A stretch of 64,000 nt of DNA from Desulfoscipio gibsoniae DSM 7213. Its GTDB lineage: Bacteria > Bacillota > Desulfotomaculia > Desulfotomaculales > Desulfallaceae. The stretch is from the NCBI RefSeq assembly GCF_000233715.2, contig NC_021184.1, positions 1,396,501-1,460,500 on the forward strand, read 5' to 3'. A program made the position numbers and the translations under genes. The notes beneath the pieces were generated by a model. The model worked only from the letters and a program-made list of their open reading frames with translations. It searched no databases and was not told the DNA's origin. Below are positions 12,877 through 23,280 of this stretch, in pieces. Position 1 is the first letter of the stretch, and every line of letters begins with the position of its first letter.

Positions 12877-14103
12877 TTATTTAGAGAGTCTATTGGTCGT
12901 CAGGCCGGTGCGCCTTATATGGGCTTCAACCTTTAGATTGATGTCGGCACTGATAAATGCCTCATTCCACTCATCTTTCAGCGCTGGCCAGGCCTCTTTA
13001 TATTTTCTATGAAAGGCTTGTCCAAAGCCAAATACGTCTACCCCATAATCATATTTAGCCAGCTCAATGACGGATCGGGCGTTGGCTTCAATGGCGCGGG
13101 CAGTGCTATTTTCAATGGCGGTAAAGATAGGCTCATCGGTTAATTCCTCCGTGGACTGCTGCTCTAAAAGAGCTCCGTCCAGGTTCATTTGCACATCAAA
13201 CCAAATGTTTTGTCCATCATAAAAGGGTTCCACCCTAGTGCTGCCCCTGGTAATGTCAATGGATATTTTTTTATCCGGTTCGGATGGTGAGGGTACGGTG
13301 ATTTCCCCGACGGTTATTTTGTCTTTAAGCCAGAGCAGCCCCCTGGTTTGGTGATAATCCAGCCAGCCCACCAGACGTTCATCATCAAATACCGCTGTGC
13401 CGGTGAGGGTGATTTCAGCATGGATTTTGGTGGATGGTTGCTGGGCATTTTGGGCCTCCGGAATATTTTCGTACATTACCGGGCCCTGGGGCGTGCCGGA
13501 CGGGGTTAATTCCATGCGGGGAAGAACCGGGTTTACGCCTTTGTTCGCCAGCATCATGCTTAAATCCTTTAACATCACCGGCACGCCAACCCCTGCCCCG
13601 ATCATGCGCCCGGCGGCTTGGGCCGAAGTATTTTCGAGCAGGGAGTGGCTGTTTAAAATATCTCGGGCCTGTCCCCTGGCCACTATTACCCAGATGGTTT
13701 CCCGGGAGTGGGGTGCGCGGGAGAAGAAGTTTATGGCTTTACGTATACCTTCTTTAGCTAGCTGCTCGCCTAAAACCAGTATCACAGTGTGACCCCAATA
13801 AATATGGCGGGATACTTTGCCCTCCAGGTACCTGGTGGCGTCCATTACTGTTTCACCCTCCTGAGAAATCACCCAGACATTGTTTTGCTGCCCTCCCCCC
13901 CCGATCTGTTGGCCGCCCTGGGAGCCGCCCAAGGCGCTGGGTCTGGCTAGCTCCACCGTGAGCAAGATATTACCTTCCGGGGTACTGTCCAAACCCGCAG
14001 CCAGCACTATGGCCAGATCACTTAATTCTTTGCGGCTCCAGCATCCCCCTAGGGGAAATACGAGACTGATTATTACCAGCAGGCAAATGGTTTTTTTCAT
14101 CAT
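12877..14103 (-). CDS. gerAC: spore germination protein GerAC-type lipoprotein
   Basis: A 408-residue Ger(x)C family lipoprotein. The signal peptide ends in LGGC with lipidated Cys21, followed directly by the family motif WSRKELSDLAIVLAAGLD. The C-terminal domain includes AKYDYGVDVFGFGQAFHRKYKEAW-type residues around 340-365, typical of the family. It forms the outer C subunit of the nutrient receptor in the spore inner membrane. Its ATG overlaps the gerAB stop by 4 nt, so translation is coupled. Confidence 0.92.
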   Translation of the reverse strand: MMKKTICLLVIISLVFPLGGCWSRKELSDLAIVLAAGLDSTPEGNILLTVELARPSALGGSQGGQQIGGGGQQNNVWVISQEGETVMDATRYLEGKVSRHIYWGHTVILVLGEQLAKEGIRKAINFFSRAPHSRETIWVIVARGQARDILNSHSLLENTSAQAAGRMIGAGVGVPVMLKDLSMMLANKGVNPVLPRMELTPSGTPQGPVMYENIPEAQNAQQPSTKIHAEITLTGTAVFDDERLVGWLDYHQTRGLLWLKDKITVGEITVPSPSEPDKKISIDITRGSTRVEPFYDGQNIWFDVQMNLDGALLEQQSTEELTDEPIFTAIENSTARAIEANARSVIELAKYDYGVDVFGFGQAFHRKYKEAWPALKDEWNEAFISADINLKVEAHIRRTGLTTNRLSK

Positions 14104-15194
14104 TGCCTATTTCCTCCTTGTCTTCTAACCAGTGCGATTAAAAGCAGGGTTAGCGGTATGACCAATTCAAAGGTTAACAGCTCGTATGGCGATACGTTGC
14201 CAAGGAAATGCGTTAACTCAAGCATATTTTCAGCCACGGCTATAGAAAGGGCTATTAGTATCACACCCACGGGCAGCACTAGTGGCCGGTAGTCTTTAAG
14301 GTTTAGCCACTGGGCGAAACCTAATACTGAAACATAATAGAAGATGGATATTTTTAGTAACCCTCCGATTATCCAGATGGCCATGATTATTGGTTCCGGG
14401 CGGTCAATGAAATTGGCTATATTAATCACCCTGGCGGCATTTAATACGGGAAAATTCATATTGCTGAAGACGGGGCCAAAGACGGCCACACTGGCCACTG
14501 CCAGCAGCGTAAAAAACAGCCCCACCAGGGGTATGGTAATAACGGCGGTGTGTCGGGTTTGTCCGGGTTGAGCTAAAAAGGGGATCAACATGGCAAAGGT
14601 GATAATTTCTCCCATCCAGCCCCAGGGAACGATGGCGCCCTTAAATATTTTTACGGTTTCGGCTTCAAAAACCGGTAGAAACCGTTCTAGTTTCATCTCC
14701 GGCAGAGCCAGCAAAAATATTAATATTACTGAAATTAATATGATCGGCAAAAAAATTTGGTTTACCCGGGCCAGAACTTCCAAACCGTTTTTTACGGTGT
14801 AAGCAGCCAGGGCCGCTCCTAAAATGTTAATAACAATCAGGGGCGTTTCGGGCATAAAAACATCTATTAGAAAATTACCATATTCCCTGATCATTATCGA
14901 ACAAATATGGATAAACCACAGTAAGTATAGCAAACCAAGCAGCTTACCGGGCCACTTGCCCAGTATGTCCTCGGTGTATTCCACCAGTGTTTTGCCTGGA
15001 AATAAAGTGCCCAGACTGGCCGTGACCCACGCAATGGGCAGAGCCAGCAGTGTGGCCAGCAGCATGGACAACCAGGCGTCCTGCCGGGCATGCACGGCGG
15101 CAATAGCCGGGACAGCGAGCATTGCCGTGGCGATAATCATGGTTATATTTAAAAAAACAGCCTGTCCGCTGCTAATTTTGCCACCTTCCAGCAA
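14100..15194 (-). CDS. gerAB: spore germination protein GerAB-type (APC-family permease-like)
   Basis: A 364-residue membrane protein with about ten hydrophobic segments, of the spore germination GerAB family related to amino acid permeases. This B subunit usually binds the germinant. The N-terminal segment GKISSGQAVFLNITMII and the mid-protein PWGWMGEIITFAMLIPF are family-typical. It sits between gerAA (14 nt away) and gerAC (4-nt overlap). A frameshifted copy of its middle part lies upstream at 16889-17020. Confidence 0.92.
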   Translation of the reverse strand: MLEGGKISSGQAVFLNITMIIATAMLAVPAIAAVHARQDAWLSMLLATLLALPIAWVTASLGTLFPGKTLVEYTEDILGKWPGKLLGLLYLLWFIHICSIMIREYGNFLIDVFMPETPLIVINILGAALAAYTVKNGLEVLARVNQIFLPIILISVILIFLLALPEMKLERFLPVFEAETVKIFKGAIVPWGWMGEIITFAMLIPFLAQPGQTRHTAVITIPLVGLFFTLLAVASVAVFGPVFSNMNFPVLNAARVINIANFIDRPEPIIMAIWIIGGLLKISIFYYVSVLGFAQWLNLKDYRPLVLPVGVILIALSIAVAENMLELTHFLGNVSPYELLTFELVIPLTLLLIALVRRQGGNRQ

Positions 15195-15208: not shown

Positions 15209-16849
15209 CTATTTATTTTTGGGCTGCGGGGGCCGTGGTTGCATCCCCGGTGCTTCTCGCTGCGGGTTGTTTTGACCAATTAAATGCGGTCGTTTGCGCA
15301 TGGCCCACCAGGGGGCCCGCACCGCCGAGTCCTTCAAATCCTCAGTAATAACAGGACCCAGCGGTGCCAGGTAGGGAACCCCAAAGGAACGTAAACTGGC
15401 CATGTGCACCACCATGGCGATTACGCCCCCAACTATGCCGAACAGCCCAAAGGATGCCGCCAGGAACATGAGCGGAAATCTTAACAGCCGAAAAGTGAAG
15501 CTGCCGCTATAGTAGACCGTGAAGGAGGCCATGGCCGTTAAAGCAACCACGATAATGGTAGCCCCGGCCACCAGCCCTGCCTGAACTGCGGCCTGGCCTA
15601 TAATTAGCGCGGCTACGATGCTCACGGCCTGGCCCACGTCCCGGGGCAGCCGGATGCCGGCTTCCCTGATAATTTCAAAGGCTAATTCCATTAATAATGC
15701 TTCCACGAAAACAGGGAAGGGCACTGCCTCCCGCTGGGCCGCGATACTTAACAGCAGAGGCGTGGGCAGCATTTCATGGTGAAAAGAAACAATAGCAATA
15801 TAAAGAGAGGGCAGCGTCAAAGCGATCACCATGCTGATAATCCGCAGCATGCGCACGCCGGACATGAAAAATGATTGCTCATAATAGTCTTCCGGTGTCT
15901 GGATGGCTTCAATGAATAAATAGGGTGCCACCAATACCATCGGTGTGCCGTCCACCATAATAGCCACCCGGCCCTCTAATAAATTGGCGGCAACTCGATC
16001 GGGACGGTCGGTGTGTGAAAGAGTGGGGAATACGGAAAAAGGGTGATCGCGGATCAGCTCTTCTATATAGCCCGATTCCAGCACTGCGTCAATTTTAATT
16101 TTCGACAGTCTGTTTTTGACCTCCTGAACCAGTCCGTCGCTTGCAATACCTTTAATGTAGATAACTGCTATATCGGTTTTAGTTACTTCCCCCAGCTGCA
16201 GCGCCTCAATTTTTAGGTTGGGATTTTTAATTTTGCGCCTGAGCATAGAAGTGTTGGTGCGTAGTGTTTCCACAAAAGATTCCCGTGGCCCTCGCACCAC
16301 CGTCTCGGTTTTTGATTCCTCAATGGAACGGGCCGCCCAGCCCCGGCTGCCGACGATTAATGCGGTAGCATGCCCGTCCACCAATAGTATACTATCTCCG
16401 GACAAAATCGCATTGATTACGTCCTCCAGCTTTTGGCTTTCCTGTAATTGATGCACACAAAGACCGCGCATTTTAATGTAGTGCCAGGCATTTTCTTTGG
16501 TTATGGCCGCCTTGTCGGTAGCTGTAGGCACTTCCAGGGATAGTGTCCGCATAATTTGGTCGCTTACCTGGCTTTTATCGGTCAAACCATCAATATAAAT
16601 CAAAGCAAGTTTTATATGTTCTCGCTGAGCAAATAAAAACTCCCGAAAAATTATGTCATTACATTGGTTGAAAATTTCCTTTAGGCTCCGGAGATTGTCT
16701 TCTATATCGCTACTTAAAGTCCGGCTTTGGGAAGTGTGGCCCGGGCCGCTTTGGCGCTGGCTATTTTGACCGCCGCTGGAGTTAACCGGCTTTTGGACCG
16801 GGGTGTTTAAACGGCGGGGTCGTCGGAATTTGTTAAAAAAAGCTGCCAT
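15209..16849 (-). CDS. gerAA: spore germination protein GerAA-type
   Basis: A 546-residue GerA family protein, the A subunit of the nutrient receptor. The N-terminal 70 residues are polar and low-complexity (Gln, Ser, Pro). The cytosolic GerA domain spans about 50-330 (motifs GDSILLVDGHATALIVGSRGW and LLEGRVAIMVDGTPMVLVAPYLF-type segment near 300). Four to five transmembrane helices follow (about 340-500). The last 30 residues are Pro/Arg/Gln-rich. The start follows AAGGAG at good spacing. It is first in a gerAA-AB-AC-small operon, expected to be forespore-expressed. Confidence 0.93.
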   Translation of the reverse strand: MAAFFNKFRRPRRLNTPVQKPVNSSGGQNSQRQSGPGHTSQSRTLSSDIEDNLRSLKEIFNQCNDIIFREFLFAQREHIKLALIYIDGLTDKSQVSDQIMRTLSLEVPTATDKAAITKENAWHYIKMRGLCVHQLQESQKLEDVINAILSGDSILLVDGHATALIVGSRGWAARSIEESKTETVVRGPRESFVETLRTNTSMLRRKIKNPNLKIEALQLGEVTKTDIAVIYIKGIASDGLVQEVKNRLSKIKIDAVLESGYIEELIRDHPFSVFPTLSHTDRPDRVAANLLEGRVAIMVDGTPMVLVAPYLFIEAIQTPEDYYEQSFFMSGVRMLRIISMVIALTLPSLYIAIVSFHHEMLPTPLLLSIAAQREAVPFPVFVEALLMELAFEIIREAGIRLPRDVGQAVSIVAALIIGQAAVQAGLVAGATIIVVALTAMASFTVYYSGSFTFRLLRFPLMFLAASFGLFGIVGGVIAMVVHMASLRSFGVPYLAPLGPVITEDLKDSAVRAPWWAMRKRPHLIGQNNPQREAPGMQPRPPQPKNK

Positions 16850-16888
16850 AGGACAACTCCTTGTAAATTTGTTTATTAGCTTAGCTTT

Positions 16889-17020
16889 GAAAAAAGGGTA
16901 TTAGCATAGCAAAGGTGATAATTTCCCCCGCCCAAGCCCAAGGGGCGATGGCACCCCGGAAAATAACTACCGCATTGGCTTCGAAAACCGCAGAAACCTG
17001 TTGGTATTCATCTCCGGCAG
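16889..17020 (-). pseudogene. frameshifted remnant of a second gerAB
   Basis: The minus strand encodes LPEMNTNRFL, then after loss of one base VFEANAVVIFRGAI and PWAWAGEIITFAMLIPFF. This aligns with the gerAB product around LPEMKLERFLPVFEAE and PWGWMGEIITFAMLIPF, and the DNA is clearly similar to 14570-14705. No start, no continuation and a one-base deletion show it is a relic. It lies directly upstream of gerAA, so a tandem or rearranged ger locus once existed here. Confidence 0.85.
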
Positions 17021-17262
17021 TAACTTTATTCTGTGTAGTTGGTGGTGTTATTATGAATTATTTTAAAAGATTACCAAGCTATTCTTAAAGAAAAAATATC
17101 TACTGTTGTTGCCAAAAAAGTGTATTGTTGGCAGGTATGATTAAAAATGTGGCAATGGGAGCCAGTATATATAGAGTTATTCTTATTCGGGTAAATTTTA
17201 TATTGGTTTAATGGGAGACATATTTCTAGTTATCCTGGGAAACATTGTTTTAGGTGGTATAG
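17021..17262. other. upstream region of the hydrogenase genes
   Basis: AT-rich and without coding signal. It presumably carries the promoter for the hydrogenase genes on the plus strand. Possible -10-like AT tracts near 17160-17220 are not convincing enough to call. Confidence 0.4.
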
Positions 17263-18393
17263 ATGATTGAAAAAGAAAATTTCAAAAAAAAGTTTAACAA
17301 AAGTGGCTTGGTGGTATCTAAAACCACCAACCAACTGGTGGGCAGTTTGCTGGCCGGAGACAAAAAGAAACGTCCTCCGGTGCTCTGGCTGGGTACCAAT
17401 ACCTGTGCGGGAGACAGTATATCTTTTTTAAACTCTCTGGATCCGGGTTACCGGGCTATTATTACGGATTTGATAGATTTTCGTTATAACCAATTTGTCA
17501 TGACCGCCGAAGGGGATATGTGTACGGGCGTACTGAAAGAAACTCTGGCTAAGCACGCCGGCGAATATATATTGATTGTAGAGGGCACTGTGCCTACCCG
17601 ATCCAATGGGCTGTATTGCGTAGTCGGCCATCGTAACGGGGAACCGTACACGGCCCTGGCGGCGGTGCAGGAACTGGGCGCGGCGGCAGGGTATGTGGTG
17701 GCAGTGGGCACCTGCGCCGCCTTTGGGGGGCCTTATGCAGCCCATCCCAATCCTTCGCATGGTAAAAGTGTTCAGGAAGTGCTGACCCGGCGGGTCATTA
17801 ATGTGCCGGGCTGTCCGGTGAACCCGGGCTGGATTGTAGGCACCCTGGCTCACCTGGTGTGGTATGGTGAACCTGAGCTGGATGATTATAACCGACCCAC
17901 GCTGTTTTACGGGGAAACCATTGATAACCTGTGCCAGCGCCGGCACTATTTCGACAGCGGTATATTTGCCGATCAATTGGGGGAGCCGTGGTGCATGTAC
18001 AAGGTGGGCTGCAAAGGGCCGGTAACCTTCGCAGACTGTCCTTACCGCCAGTGGAACGGGGAGCACGTCAATTGGCCCGTTAAGGCCAATACCCCCTGCA
18101 TAGGTTGTGTAAGTCCCGAGTTTCCAGAGCACACCATGCCTTTTTTTGAGCACCTGCCGGATATACGCCTGCCCGGTATTACCGTAAATGCCAACCGTAT
18201 AGGGGCCATAACCGGCACCCTGACCGCCCTCGGCCTTGGCACTCACCTGGCGACCAGTGTTATAAAGGGACGGCTGCCCAAAACTATTAAAAAGGGTTTA
18301 GCACCTCCCAAATTAGGTCTCGAGGTGCTGCAGAACACGCCAGCGCAAAAGTTAGTAGATGGTATTAAATATAAATTAAAGAAAAGGCATTAA
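17263..18393 (+). CDS. [NiFe] hydrogenase small subunit with Cys-x-x-Asp proximal cluster motif
   Basis: A 376-residue Fe-S subunit that passes electrons from the NiFe site. The proximal-cluster motif reads Cys48-Ala-Gly-Asp51 where most enzymes have CxxC; the other proximal ligands are in VGTCAAFGG and VPGCPVNP. Distal and medial ligands follow in RRHYFDSG, PWCMYKVGCKGP, FADCP and TPCIGC. A 3Cys/1Asp proximal cluster is known from actinobacterial-type (group 1h) enzymes. No twin-arginine signal is present, so it should be cytosolic, as in groups 1h and 2a. ATG at 17263 follows TTAGGTGG. The large subunit follows after 139 nt. Confidence 0.92.
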   Translation: MIEKENFKKKFNKSGLVVSKTTNQLVGSLLAGDKKKRPPVLWLGTNTCAGDSISFLNSLDPGYRAIITDLIDFRYNQFVMTAEGDMCTGVLKETLAKHAGEYILIVEGTVPTRSNGLYCVVGHRNGEPYTALAAVQELGAAAGYVVAVGTCAAFGGPYAAHPNPSHGKSVQEVLTRRVINVPGCPVNPGWIVGTLAHLVWYGEPELDDYNRPTLFYGETIDNLCQRRHYFDSGIFADQLGEPWCMYKVGCKGPVTFADCPYRQWNGEHVNWPVKANTPCIGCVSPEFPEHTMPFFEHLPDIRLPGITVNANRIGAITGTLTALGLGTHLATSVIKGRLPKTIKKGLAPPKLGLEVLQNTPAQKLVDGIKYKLKKRH

Positions 18394-18532
18394 TCGGGCT
18401 AGATATAAATTCGGGTGCATTCCTAAATCCTAAAAAATATTGGTAATTGGTGTTAATTTGGGATTGAGCGAGAATAAAGGAAGAGTAGTTTTAACCTCAC
18501 AAATCAGCTTGAAAGGGGGTGCCAGTCATCAA

Positions 18533-19969
18533 ATGAAAAAGATTACCATTAATCCGGTGACCAGGGCCAACAGTCCCTTTGTGGTGGAAGTTACGGTATC
18601 CGGTGGCAAGGTGGTGGAAGCCAGATGCAGTGTTCAGTTTTTCAGGGGGTTTGAGTTAATCTTAAAGGACCGGGACCCCCGGGACGCCAGTTACCTTACC
18701 GAGCGGGTGTGCGGTATTTGTTCCGCCGCTCACGGTACAGCGGCAGCCTTTGCCTTGGAAGATGCCGCCGGGGTACGACCGCCCCATAACGGTAATGTAT
18801 TGCGTAATTTAATTTTAGGCGCGGATTTGCTGCAAAATCATATCAGGCATTTTTATCTTTTAAGTTTGCCCGATTTCATGCGGGGACCTGACCTGCATCC
18901 CTTTGTGCCTGGTTATAAAAAAGACTTCAGGCTCAATGGCCGAGACAACGAGGCTATGTTGCAAAACTACTATGAAGCATTGGAGATAGCACGGCTGGCC
19001 CATGAGCTGGTGGCCCTGTTCGGCGCAAAAGCACCATTCCCCCATAGTATACTGGCCGGGGGCAGCACCGTAGCACCTGCGGTGGATGTAGTCCTAAATT
19101 TCCGCTCCAAACTGCAAAAAATAAACGATTTTATTGCCAACCGGATGATTGCTGATGCCCATACCCTGGCCGATGTTTATGCTGATTACTATACCATTGG
19201 TGGCCGTAAAGCCGATATGCTGATATTCGGCCTATTTCCCCGGGATCAAAACGACCAGGGAAGGTATTTCCCCTTCGGGGTGGTGCTGGACGGGCAGGTG
19301 TGTCAAATGGACTCTCAGGCCATTAAGGAAGATCTAAGCCATGCCTGGTATGAAGATAACGGCGAAAATTCCGGCGTTTCTAAAGTAATGCGTAATCAAG
19401 AAGTACTAAATGATCAAACAGCGCCCGACCGGGATAAACAAGGGGCTTATTCTTGGGTGAAAGCACCCCGTTATAACGGCAGGGCAGTGGAGGGGGGACC
19501 CCTGGCCCGGCTATGGGTAAGCGGTGACTACCGCCGCGGTGTTTCTACAATAGACCGGATAATGGCCCGGGTGTTGGAAACCCAAAAGGTGGGCCAATTA
19601 ATGGAGGGGTGGTTGAAGGAACTGCGCCCCGGAGAACCTGTGTATAAAACTTTTAAAATCCCTCAAAAAGCAGTCGGAGTGGGCTTAACCGGTGCCATGC
19701 GCGGTCCTCTGGGCCACTGGCTGCGTATTGAAAAGGGACGCATTGCCAATTACCAGATCATTACCCCCACGGCGTGGAACATGTCCCCCCGGGATGCAGA
19801 GGGGCAGCTCGGCCCAATGGAACAGGCCCTTTTAGATACACCGGTGGCGGATGAAAACGAGCCCATAGAAATCAGCCGGGTGGTCCGCGCTTTCGACCCC
19901 TGCTCGGCTTGCGCCACCCATGTGATTGCACCCGGCAAATCATTGCGGGAGTTTATGATTTCTTTGTAA
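18533..19969 (+). CDS. [NiFe] hydrogenase large (catalytic) subunit
   Basis: A 478-residue catalytic subunit that binds the NiFe(CN)2CO centre. The L1 motif RVCGICSAAH has Cys60 and Cys63; the L2 motif DPCSACATH has Cys457 and Cys460. After His463 a 15-residue tail (VIAPGKSLREFMISL) remains, the peptide removed by the maturation protease encoded at 22810. The frame is open further upstream to 18440, but ATG at 18533 starts the family-typical MKKITINPVTR and follows AAAGGGGG, though with long spacing. Substrate is H2; direction (uptake or evolution) is not set by sequence. Confidence 0.94.
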   Translation: MKKITINPVTRANSPFVVEVTVSGGKVVEARCSVQFFRGFELILKDRDPRDASYLTERVCGICSAAHGTAAAFALEDAAGVRPPHNGNVLRNLILGADLLQNHIRHFYLLSLPDFMRGPDLHPFVPGYKKDFRLNGRDNEAMLQNYYEALEIARLAHELVALFGAKAPFPHSILAGGSTVAPAVDVVLNFRSKLQKINDFIANRMIADAHTLADVYADYYTIGGRKADMLIFGLFPRDQNDQGRYFPFGVVLDGQVCQMDSQAIKEDLSHAWYEDNGENSGVSKVMRNQEVLNDQTAPDRDKQGAYSWVKAPRYNGRAVEGGPLARLWVSGDYRRGVSTIDRIMARVLETQKVGQLMEGWLKELRPGEPVYKTFKIPQKAVGVGLTGAMRGPLGHWLRIEKGRIANYQIITPTAWNMSPRDAEGQLGPMEQALLDTPVADENEPIEISRVVRAFDPCSACATHVIAPGKSLREFMISL

Positions 19970-20618: not shown

Positions 20619-21470
20619 ATGCAAAATTTATTGAAATTGGTATTAATAGCAGTGGCTATTTTGTTAATCTTTGGTCAATTAAACCTTAAACAAAAGATTC
20701 AGCAAAAACCAATCCCTCAAAATAAGCTTCCTATTGCACACCAGCCTGTTTACCCGAATAAGGATAAACAAAAGGCTTCGCTGGTCCCTCAAAATACTAA
20801 ACAAGGTTGTGTTATATTTGAGAACGACAGTGTGGTGGTCTGCCGCTTAGACCAGGAATACGATGTTATTAACAAGCAAACGGGACAAACTATAAGAGTT
20901 AGTCACGGTGGTGTTGTTCACAATATTAATGATAAACTGGCCGGTATGCCCCCGCTGGTGGGGCATGCTATAGCAGAAGGTATTAAGCTGGTTGATGGCG
21001 ATGAAATAACCGTCATTGGCATTGAGCCTACATTTAAAGTGTTGGCTGCCTACCCCAATCCCCGTACTGGCCGGGATAAAATTATCATCAACAAAGGAAC
21101 CAATACTTTATATTTATACAAAGAAGGCGAGCTGTACAAAAGTTACCCGGTGGCCACCGGAAAAGATCCTCTGTATACACCCGAGGGTGTTTTCAAAATA
21201 GCCAATAAAATTGAGGACCATGGCCGGGAATTAAAGCCGCAGCTGGGTGATCGCTGGATGGGCCTCGCCGTGCCTTTTGAACAAGATAACCGGGCCGTAA
21301 AAGACGCCAGAGCACCGGTTGGTAGCAAGTATGGCATTCATGGTACCAATGAGCCGGATTCTATAGGTAAACATGCCTCGGGCGGGTGCATCAGGATGGA
21401 TAACAGGCAAGTTGCCGAGCTTTTTAAATTGGTCGAGGTAAATACAATCGTGGAAATCAGGCACCAGTAA
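20619..21470 (+). CDS. L,D-transpeptidase (YkuD family)
   Basis: A 283-residue exported enzyme. One N-terminal transmembrane segment (about 3-20) anchors it. Residues about 160-282 form the YkuD catalytic domain: NKGTNTLYLYKEGELYKSYPVATG starts it, and the catalytic HGT...SGGCIRM motif (His near 242, Cys near 259) is intact. It makes 3-3 cross-links in peptidoglycan or attaches proteins; spore cortex or vegetative wall cannot be decided. The middle region (60-140) resembles a cell-wall binding or LysM-like spacer but is not clear. The start has GGGGGAGG upstream. Confidence 0.85.
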   Translation: MQNLLKLVLIAVAILLIFGQLNLKQKIQQKPIPQNKLPIAHQPVYPNKDKQKASLVPQNTKQGCVIFENDSVVVCRLDQEYDVINKQTGQTIRVSHGGVVHNINDKLAGMPPLVGHAIAEGIKLVDGDEITVIGIEPTFKVLAAYPNPRTGRDKIIINKGTNTLYLYKEGELYKSYPVATGKDPLYTPEGVFKIANKIEDHGRELKPQLGDRWMGLAVPFEQDNRAVKDARAPVGSKYGIHGTNEPDSIGKHASGGCIRMDNRQVAELFKLVEVNTIVEIRHQ

Positions 21471-21567: not shown

Positions 21568-21643
21568 CCAGTCATGGGGCTTGCTCTATGTTTTTGGTGA
21601 AAATGGTTTTTAGGAATAGCTGAAAGCTATGTTTCATGACTGG
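21568..21643 (+). other. possible structured leader of the ferritin-like gene
   Basis: A 9-bp perfect pair CCAGTCATG (21568-21576) / CATGACTGG (21635-21643) encloses a second hairpin ATAGC-TGAAA-GCTAT at 21616-21630. The right arm includes the ATG at 21636, so folding could hide a start. No known riboswitch family is recognised. Confidence 0.4.
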
Positions 21644-22094
21644 GACAACCATGGACGATAAAACAATAATGGCCAAATTAAATTGGTTTTATAGCCTGGA
21701 GCTGAGCCAGGTGGATTTATATACAGCCCAGGCCCATGCTGTGGAGGACATTTACCTGGCTAAAACTTTTGCCAGAATAGCAATGATTGAGCAGCAGCAT
21801 GTAGACAAGCTGGCCGAGGAAATTAAAAGACGGGGGGGGATGCCCACCAGTCTGGGAGATGTTATTTCGCCCCTGCTTGGGAAATCCGCCGGTACATTTA
21901 GTGGTTTGCTGGGACCCAAGATGATACTTAAAATGAATATCACTTTGGAAGAAAAGGCCATGCAGGATTATAAAAATATAATCATGCATGTTGGAAATGA
22001 CCAGCATCTGTTTGATGTTTTATGGGACAATCTGATTGACGAGGATCTACATACCGCGTGGTTTACCAATAAGTTAAAGGAGTTTGAGCATTAG
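21636..22094 (+). CDS. ferritin-like diiron-type four-helix protein
   Basis: A protein of about 150 residues with the four-helix ferritin-like pattern of the COQ7/rubrerythrin superfamily. Carboxylate/His pairs are visible: Glu in LELSQVDLY, EQQH in helix 2, EEKAMQDY in helix 3 and DEDLH in helix 4. It most likely binds iron and handles peroxide, or acts as an oxidoreductase. The start is either ATG 21636 or ATG 21651; neither has a strong ribosome site. It lies between the L,D-transpeptidase and the hydrogenase cytochrome, in the same direction. Confidence 0.72.
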   Translation: MTGTTMDDKTIMAKLNWFYSLELSQVDLYTAQAHAVEDIYLAKTFARIAMIEQQHVDKLAEEIKRRGGMPTSLGDVISPLLGKSAGTFSGLLGPKMILKMNITLEEKAMQDYKNIIMHVGNDQHLFDVLWDNLIDEDLHTAWFTNKLKEFEH

Positions 22095-22168: not shown

Positions 22169-22789
22169 ATGATATTTGACAATAACCTGCTGGGATTACG
22201 ACTAAAAGGCATTAAAACTAAACGCCACAGCCGGACCGCCAGGGCGTTGCACTGGGTGCTGGTGCCGTCTTTCTTGCTGCTGGCAGCCAGTGGTTTTTAT
22301 ATCCATAAACCCACCGGTGCACGCGGCTTTCGCAGTATGGATGCCGCAAGGAAAGTGCATTTTACCGCACAGTATTTCTTGGGCTTTTATCTTTTGTCCC
22401 GGGTATACTATGCTGTGGCCAGCCGGGATTACCGCAAGCTGTTCCCCGGTGCCGGCGACATAGCCGATGTCCCGAGGTTTGCCGCTTACGAGCTTTTTTT
22501 AAAAAGGCAACAGCCCAACTATCCCAAGTATAACCCCGGGCAAAAGTTGTTGTTTTCTCAAATGGCCATATTGTTTATAACACAATTGGTCACCGGAGCG
22601 GCCCTTTATTCCCCAGGCAAGCTGCAAATGTTGAGCCGTTATTTTGGTGGTTTGCACAATACCCGCCTGGTGCATTATTTAGTTGCAGTTATCTTATCAA
22701 GCGCGGTGGCGGGGCATGTTTATTTTGCGTTTACCAACAGCTTGGGAAAACTTAAATCGATTTTTACCGGTTATTTTAGGCCCAAGTAA
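22169..22789 (+). CDS. b-type cytochrome, [NiFe] hydrogenase membrane subunit-like
   Basis: A 206-residue integral membrane cytochrome b of the HyaC/HydC/formate dehydrogenase gamma type. Four hydrophobic helices carry candidate haem ligands: ALHWVL (helix 1), KVHFTAQ (helix 2), and LHNTRLVHYL plus AGHVYF (helix 4). It would link the hydrogenase to the quinone pool. It is separated from the structural subunits by about 2.2 kb but sits next to the maturation protease. The lack of an export signal on the small subunit would put the enzyme on the inner face. Confidence 0.82.
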   Translation: MIFDNNLLGLRLKGIKTKRHSRTARALHWVLVPSFLLLAASGFYIHKPTGARGFRSMDAARKVHFTAQYFLGFYLLSRVYYAVASRDYRKLFPGAGDIADVPRFAAYELFLKRQQPNYPKYNPGQKLLFSQMAILFITQLVTGAALYSPGKLQMLSRYFGGLHNTRLVHYLVAVILSSAVAGHVYFAFTNSLGKLKSIFTGYFRPK

Positions 22790-22809: not shown

Positions 22810-23280
22810 GTGAAGCAGATTGCCGTAGTAGGACTGGGCAACCCGTTATTAAAGGATGACGGAATTGGTCCCCGTGTGGTTAGGGAATTACAAAAAACCG
22901 GTATGCCGCCGGGCGTTCGGGCTGTTGAGGCAGGAGGCGTCCTGTGGAGCTACTGGAATTTACTCAGGGAGTGCAGGCATGTAATTGCTGTGGACTGCAT
23001 GCAGGGGGGTGGTCCAGCGGGGGCTGTTTATCTAATGGGCCTGGAGCAGCTAAACAAAATAGAAACGGGAGCGGGGTCGGATGCCTGGATAGGCCATGAG
23101 CTGCACTTTCTGGATGCGCTAAAGTTAGCTGCTCACTACGGGGTTAGACCGGAGGTGACTATTATTGGCGTGGAGCCCGGCGAAATTAGCTTCTCCCTTG
23201 AACTATCGCCGGTAATTGAAGCCAGGTTGCCCCGGCTGGTGGAAATTGTGCGGGAACGGTGTTGGTGTTTGATGAGGTGA
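22810..23280 (+). CDS. hydrogenase maturation protease
   Basis: A 156-residue HyaD/HybD/HycI family endopeptidase. It starts KQIAVVGLGNPLLKDDGIGPRVV, which carries the metal-binding acidic residue of GNPLLxDD. It also has VIAVDCMQGGGPAGAVYL and a His in IGHELHFLDAL, the three nickel-sensing ligand sites. It removes the C-terminal tail of the large subunit at 18533. The start is GTG at 22810, 20 nt after the cytochrome stop. Confidence 0.9.
   Translation: MKQIAVVGLGNPLLKDDGIGPRVVRELQKTGMPPGVRAVEAGGVLWSYWNLLRECRHVIAVDCMQGGGPAGAVYLMGLEQLNKIETGAGSDAWIGHELHFLDALKLAAHYGVRPEVTIIGVEPGEISFSLELSPVIEARLPRLVEIVRERCWCLMR

Follow-up and report, generated by a model that had tools for sequence, protein, structure and literature searches.

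A group 1 [NiFe] hydrogenase without a Tat signal and without the second proximal cysteine next to a gerA operon in Desulfoscipio gibsoniae

Periplasmic hydrogenases of the [NiFeSe] and group 1a types carry a signal peptide. In group 1h, the Asp at the proximal cluster is a proposed feature for coping with O2, according to the accessible part of PMC7174314. For D. gibsoniae, the part of PMC4148979 that was available describes three [NiFe] hydrogenases, namely Desgi_1398-1397, the 'simple dimeric' Desgi_1231-1230 and one group 3 enzyme; it lists the first as possibly membrane-bound via the cytochrome b Desgi_1402, and these portions of the paper are silent on its cluster ligands or the absence of a twin-arginine translocation (Tat) signal. 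Here, we analysed a window of 64,000 nucleotides from D. gibsoniae DSM 7213 (contig NC_021184.1, positions 1,396,501 to 1,460,500; the genome is one contig of 4,855,529 bases), in which positions 17263-19969 encode a [NiFe] hydrogenase that is evidently Desgi_1398-1397. Its small subunit has Asp in place of the second proximal-cluster Cys, it lacks a Tat signal, and its genes lie next to a complete gerA germination operon. Comparison with related loci placed the enzyme, with good support, in a Bacillota clade of group 1 hydrogenases, and the linkage of Tat-less members without this Cys to gerA operons, which arose or was renewed repeatedly, is a new point.

Proximal-cluster residues and the Bacillota clade

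The hydrogenase genes and the sites discussed below are the following.

17263..18393, + strand: [NiFe] hydrogenase small subunit, Tat-less (376 amino acids; PF14720 106.9 bits, PF01058 98.4 bits, TIGR00391 261.9 bits)
17404..17415, + strand: Cys48-Ala-Gly-Asp51, the first two proximal-cluster positions, with Asp replacing the second Cys
17923..17925, + strand: Asp221 replacing the distal-cluster His (codon GAT; the sole case in 195 aligned small subunits)
18190..18264, + strand: C-terminal helix predicted by AlphaFold2, residues 310-334, followed by a Lys/Arg-rich tail
18533..19969, + strand: [NiFe] hydrogenase large subunit (PF00374 367.1 bits; start picked by eye)
22169..22789, + strand: hydrogenase-type b cytochrome (PF01292 105.3 bits)

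The original prediction, which was made from the letters of the window, described a 3Cys/1Asp pattern at the proximal cluster, a missing export signal and a nearby cytochrome b gene in an anaerobic spore former, and all four points were borne out. In the translated open reading frame (ORF), Cys48 (TGT, 17404-17406) and Asp51 (GAC, 17413-17415) stand in the context WLGTNTC48AGD51SISF and align with the two N-terminal proximal-cluster cysteines of the [NiFeSe] small subunit 1cc1, while the remaining proximal cysteines, Cys151 and Cys184, are both there. The N-terminus has no Tat motif, the PF01292 gene is present, and the host is Desulfoscipio (Desulfotomaculum) gibsoniae. An AlphaFold2 model of the small subunit that was built on 77 alignment rows (mean predicted local distance difference test score, pLDDT, 85.2; it replaced a poorer 21-row model with a pLDDT of 61.4) superposed on 1cc1_S with a Z of 36.2; for the 261 residues superposed (36-298 of the model, 6-283 of the chain), the root-mean-square deviation was 1.5. 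At the level of residue ranges, the alignment and the predicted fold thus agree in placing residues 48 and 51 at the sites of the two N-terminal proximal cysteines. Comparing the window genes with those of three relatives gave ratios of nonsynonymous to synonymous substitutions (dN/dS) of 0.08-0.17 (small subunit) and 0.09-0.10 (large subunit), indicating purifying selection; because of these low values and because the same motif occurs in relatives from other species, Cys48-Ala-Gly-Asp51 is not a product of chance or error.

The top PDB sequence matches of the small subunit were [NiFeSe] small subunits (4kl8, E 8.4e-60), and HofK (5aa5) was a weak match (phmmer E 9.6e-28). The nearest PDB kin of the large subunit by sequence were likewise [NiFeSe] large subunits. 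Its L1 (RVCGIC) and L2 (DPCSAC) motifs have all four cysteines, and there is no selenocysteine in L2 and no in-frame TGA in its ORF. Both subunits show the marks of the group 1 [NiFe] family (PF01058 and PF14720 in the small subunit, PF00374 with the L1 and L2 CxxC in the large one); the Tat signal, a further group 1 feature, is missing here though it is found in part of the same clade.

For the comparison, 16 genomes of the family, 113 of the class and 398 of the phylum were searched and plasmid references were added; 12 listed class-search hits were left out, 60 phylum loci were taken, and the best 80 of the 221 named-genome matches were used. ORFs of at least 230 amino acids were kept and merged if their last 180 residues were alike, which gave 195 non-identical small subunits including references. 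The second proximal position was Cys in 56, Asp in 62, Asn in 34, Glu in five, and Gly and His in one each; a further 36 sequences have Ser at the first position with Asn (35) or Asp (1) at the second. In trees computed without the trait columns, the non-Cys Bacillota sequences formed one clade without any member of the CCCC type, i.e., with all four proximal cysteines. This clade comprised 76 of the 116 rows of the small-subunit tree (Shimodaira-Hasegawa-like approximate likelihood ratio test, SH-aLRT, 99) and 39/64 rows of a smaller one (support 100/99), 49/61 rows of the large-subunit tree (SH-aLRT 100), and 33/43 rows for both subunits (support 100). None of the 76 sampled clade representatives keeps the second proximal Cys, which is replaced by Asp, Asn, Glu, Gly or His. 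The state of this position changes about 17 times inside the clade, and therefore Asp in particular is not required; forcing the clade's 15 Asp rows into a single clade was strongly rejected by the approximately unbiased (AU) test (p 9e-9). The named members include Desulfosporosinus, Thermincola, Pelosinus, Sporomusa, Desulforudis, Desulfotruncus, Paradesulfitobacterium and an Aneurinibacillus metagenome-assembled genome (MAG), most of which are anaerobes. In the open-access literature, as far as titles and abstract beginnings among the matches listed go, there was nothing on a Bacillota clade without the second proximal Cys, nor on a hydrogenase-gerA linkage. The clade offers natural D, N, E, G and H variants at one proximal-cluster position, which makes it possible to examine this ligand separately from O2 tolerance.

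The distal-cluster His is kept by the other 194 of the 195 aligned small subunits, and the three nearest relatives compared have CAT or CAC where the window has the Asp221 codon. Loss of the distal His after loss of the proximal Cys could mean failing electron transfer in a decaying enzyme, and the uniqueness of Asp221 would fit this. The low dN/dS values, the intact ORFs and the His that the three relatives retain argue against it, and decay is the least probable of the explanations weighed here.

A different explanation, towards which the original prediction had pointed, is a 1h-like, high-affinity, O2-tolerant hydrogenase in an anaerobe. The three 1h references (HofK, Streptomyces and Methylocystis) have C-D-G-D and no Tat, and so share C-x-G-D and the lack of Tat with the window enzyme; its C-x-x-D is, however, not specific to 1h. 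In the free trees, the 1h references fell outside the Bacillota clade, the branch leading to them being very long (about 2.4-2.9 changes per site), and with both subunits they stood beside 1b/1d-type rows (support 68). Holding 1h as sister of the whole clade was not rejected (AU p 0.68, 0.614, 0.792 and 0.724) and the held tree was slightly better every time, but 1h can be placed elsewhere about equally well; 1h with the CCCC kin was not rejected either (both subunits, p 0.676), and the Asp may be shared by descent or convergent. Joining 1h to the window subclade was borderline by the small subunit (p 0.046) and not rejected by the large (0.54) or both subunits (0.197). DUF5947 is annotated beside all three references, and NifU-like and DUF6084 genes in pHG1 only; we infer that these are 1h-defining accessories, and scanning 10 neighbours in the window for protein families revealed no DUF5947. 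For structures, we take 7uur to be that of Huc. As Huc belongs to group 2a according to the part of PMC10017518 at hand, Huc structures are unusable as 1h references. Because Asn, Glu, Gly and His also occur at the position in the clade, Asp alone gives no ground for assuming a device for O2 tolerance. Kinship with 1h and O2 tolerance were thus not supported, and we consider a 1h-like enzyme very unlikely. In the trees of each subunit and of both together, the enzyme groups with largely anaerobic relatives that are all non-Cys in the sample, the very grouping that had been named as refuting the prediction, and its pairing of CxxD with a cytochrome b, from which an unusual enzyme had been surmised, recurs in many relatives.

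Two side observations concern the proximal cluster. Outside the clade, Asn occurs there in the Tat-bearing plasmid hydrogenases of Sulfobacillus and Sulfurimonas (L113, L114). A paralogue lineage, represented by L016:7797-10152 (1263796-1266151 of the D. gibsoniae genome) and related loci, e.g., L046-L062, L172, L173 and L175-L181, has lost both N-terminal proximal Cys (TNDSGDNN, possibly with Asp-Ser-Gly-Asp instead), the C-terminal helix and Tat. These are [NiFe] hydrogenases with only two proximal cysteines, and the large subunits examined retain the NiFe cysteines; in 29 of the 36 small subunits of this lineage, a KEEFxxLC stretch remains.

Linkage to gerA germination operons

The operon upstream of the hydrogenase, and divergent from it, is a complete gerA set.

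12877..14103, - strand: gerC-type gene of the divergent gerA operon (PF05504 153.6 bits, PF25198 135.6 bits; kept beside the hydrogenase in relatives)
14100..15194, - strand: gerB-type gene, spore germination permease family (PF03845 187.3 bits; kept in relatives)
15209..16849, - strand: gerXA, GerA germinant receptor subunit (PF03323 630.8 bits; one of five GerA genes in the genome)
16850..17262, no strand: divergent intergenic region between gerXA and the hydrogenase (413 bases)

Linkage, defined as GerA within 4.5 kb, was counted in those 108 loci for which 4 kb or more of upstream sequence was available. It was found in 17 of the 28 Tat-less non-Cys loci, as compared with 2/27 Tat-bearing non-Cys, 0/28 Ser/Asn and 0/25 CCCC loci (Fisher p 4e-5 or lower, with related loci treated as independent). 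The 28 Tat-less loci include the 1h reference L111 and the soluble-type L166 and L184, without which 17/25 were linked. One further locus, L117, was left out of the count; genes resembling gerB and gerC lie on its downstream side, the latter seen in the longer copy L091. The chance proximity of gerA is about 1.2% per locus (18 GerA genes above the cut-off in six genomes), and 16 of the 17 linked gerA loci are divergent. In the GerA tree, the linked gerXA fall into three groups that are separated from one another by unlinked paralogues. One is of the Desulforudis type and has an unlinked GerA of D. gibsoniae close by (support 100/100), another is the window group (100/99), and the third consists of L095/L106/L133/L147 (100/100). 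Thus, the linkage arose, or the operon was exchanged, on at least three occasions. The gene order also varies, with gerB closest to the hydrogenase in the Desulforudis and L106 groups.

This pattern bears on the possibility that the sulfate reducer uses the enzyme in vegetative cells, as an ordinary H2:menaquinone uptake hydrogenase, and that the gerA neighbourhood is happenstance kept by descent. D. gibsoniae grows on H2 + CO2 + sulfate, as reported in the part of PMC4148979 consulted, where the membrane attachment via Desgi_1402 would also suit such a role. In addition, 25 of the 27 Tat-bearing relatives have no gerA nearby, and most of them have a cytochrome b gene. Three GerA groups with differing gene orders are, however, hard to derive by descent alone, and loss of Tat would end the usual outside location that generates proton motive force. 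We regard a vegetative enzyme beside gerA by happenstance as rather doubtful.

Location of the enzyme and a possible role in spores

Tat was scored as [STNDE]RRxF within the 75 residues before the first Cys position; a looser pattern gave false positives (e.g., L176). Tat was present in 32 of the 34 CCCC representatives; in the clade, 26 of the 76 representatives carry it, 44 lack it and six are too short to score, and three changes suffice to explain this distribution. In the window, no frameshifted or upstream Tat signal was noted on inspection by eye only. In the window group, Tat is gone, yet the C-terminal helix and the cytochrome b gene are retained, and the superposition of the model on the small subunit of Hyd-1, as solved together with its cytochrome b (4gd3), extends to model residue 336. 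The Ser/Asn group has the helix in 0/36 sequences and no cytochrome b match in its rows. In 29 of these 36, a KEEFxxLC-like stretch stands where many exported kin carry RREFxxLC (44/53 CCCC and 24/47 Tat-bearing non-Cys, as against 0/50 Tat-less non-Cys), and it is probably a fossil of the Tat signal, judging by this correspondence.

The PF01292 gene lies 2.2 kb downstream of the hydrogenase here and adjoins the large subunit in many relatives, and on the basis of this neighbourhood the b cytochrome is its putative partner. It scored 104.4 against TIGR02125, i.e., under the cut-off of 121.5. Its His residues align with those of HoxZ, one of which some exported relatives lack.

We tentatively read the enzyme as a membrane-associated group 1 Bacillota [NiFe] hydrogenase with a three-Cys proximal cluster that would serve spores as a core-facing H2:menaquinone enzyme, a reading that we hold as possible and not yet as probable; the enzyme type in it is well supported, and the gerA linkage suggests the spore role. 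The proximal Fe-S cluster would be held by Cys48, Cys151 and Cys184 with a variable fourth residue, here Asp51, and it is probably a [3Fe-4S] cluster or a loosely liganded [4Fe-4S] cluster, whose fourth ligand would be weak or an oxygen or nitrogen. Such an altered cluster would lift the potential of the relay and bias the enzyme to uptake; the accessible part of PMC10017518 places [3Fe-4S] clusters about 250 mV above [4Fe-4S] ones. The enzyme would stay on the cytoplasmic face of the membrane, which in spores is the core face, and oxidise H2, with electrons running along its clusters to the b cytochrome and on to menaquinone. With less certainty, it may be made in the forespore alongside the neighbouring germinant receptor and charge the quinone pool of the inner spore membrane at the onset of germination. 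GerA operons are forespore genes. That a spore hydrogenase is co-expressed with germinant receptors, and that H2 is a fuel, perhaps a co-germinant, for waking anaerobic spores, is conceivable though on the whole unlikely. For Bacillus, the available part of PMC12772218 describes an early energisation of electron transport during germination, which is slowed when a spore oxidase isoform is lost; by analogy, an H2-fed chain could be the anaerobic counterpart of this powered germination.

Several points weigh against the core-facing spore enzyme. Asp221 at the distal His may slow electron exit, the Fisher test counts related loci as if independent, and gerA was not within 4.5 kb in 11 of the 28 Tat-less loci (8/25 without L111, L166 and L184). 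In the 200 bases before each of six ger-linked small-subunit genes, three of whose starts are approximate, no promoter matching the sigma consensuses stood above shuffles (lowest p: SigG 0.12, SigE 0.32, SigA 0.47). Before gerXA, SigG-like sites had p 0.05-0.57 and SigE-like sites 0.03-0.52, and in some relatives a conserved block of the intergenic region gives a weak SigG-like match ahead of gerXA. The suggestion in the original prediction of a use in spores is strengthened by the recurrent gerA linkage of Tat-less members, while no forespore promoter was found for the hydrogenase itself. Finally, the tail behind the helix has a median of 10.5 K+R against 1 D+E (32 Tat-less helix-bearing sequences) and the cytochrome b N-terminus is positively charged and looks N-in by eye; both would fit the original arrangement, in which the globular part lies outside.

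The same topology would be expected if the enzyme still reached the outside of the membrane through a non-canonical route or by hitch-hiking, in which case a missing Tat signal would not imply a cytoplasmic location. The helix with its charged tail and the HoxZ-like His residues of the cytochrome fit this. However, no carrier candidate was seen among the 10 scanned neighbours, the N-terminus is far less hydrophobic than in Tat-bearing relatives (median KD14 0.23 for Tat-less sequences vs 1.48), and Tat is missing in 44 of the 70 scorable clade representatives, of all types. Export by another route therefore appears improbable. If the gerA linkage is functional, H2 would be a candidate energy source or signal when anaerobic spores germinate, among them the spores of Desulforudis-type sulfate reducers.

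Further neighbours, related loci and known systems

Three further genes lie downstream of the large subunit.

20619..21470, + strand: YkuD-type L,D-transpeptidase, a neighbour retained in part of the clade (PF03734 82.6 bits)
21636..22094, + strand: ferritin-like protein (PF00210 35.3 bits)
22810..23280, + strand: hydrogenase maturation protease (TIGR00072 106.2 bits)

The ferritin-like gene stays near the hydrogenase in Desulfoscipio, Desulfotruncus and one Soudan MAG, and it is also found near two more distant hydrogenases (L138, L152). A separate observation was made in the large subunits of five related loci (L067, L068, L070, L073 and L081). Their L1 motif (RICGV*PISHG) has an in-frame TGA where the second cysteine would stand, which we take to be the Ni-Fe bridging ligand. 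All five share the identical 21 bases CACGGCATCAGTTCGGTGCTA right after the TGA while the flanking codons vary, and the 14 Cys-bearing kin rows differ. In each of the five genomes, RF01852 (tRNA-Sec) gave a match of 71-79 bits, with others there at most 53; it was also over the cut-off in 5 of the 14 control genomes. Simple folds were not consistent. It is possible, on these sequence features, that the L1 TGA encodes selenocysteine at the bridging position, unlike the TGA in L2 that was found in L077, L080 and L083.

Among the known systems, the HyaABC / HoxKGZ-type group 1 enzymes resemble the window in their subunit families, the C-terminal helix, the b cytochrome and a maturation protease nearby; the window differs in having no Tat, Asp for the second proximal Cys, Asp at the distal His and an adjacent gerA operon. 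The [NiFeSe] / group 1a-type periplasmic enzymes (1cc1, 4kl8, 5jsu) give the best sequence matches of both subunits among solved structures, and 1cc1 is also the closest fold to the small subunit (Z 36), with the small subunits of other group 1 enzymes no more than about 3 Z behind. In contrast to the window, 1cc1 has all four proximal Cys, and the window enzyme is not of the selenium type. HofKG of Cupriavidus necator (5aa5, group 1h / 'actinobacterial') shares C-x-G-D and the lack of Tat, whereas group 1h differs in its weak sequence match, the adjacent DUF5947 and its long separate branch; no cytochrome b is annotated in the three 1h reference stretches, two of which end soon past the large subunit. 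The Tat-bearing Bacillota relatives (Desulfosporosinus, Thermincola, Pelosinus and Sporomusa sp. KB1) belong to the same clade, have CxG[D/N/E] and mostly a cytochrome b gene, but differ from the window enzyme in keeping Tat and in seldom lying beside gerA.

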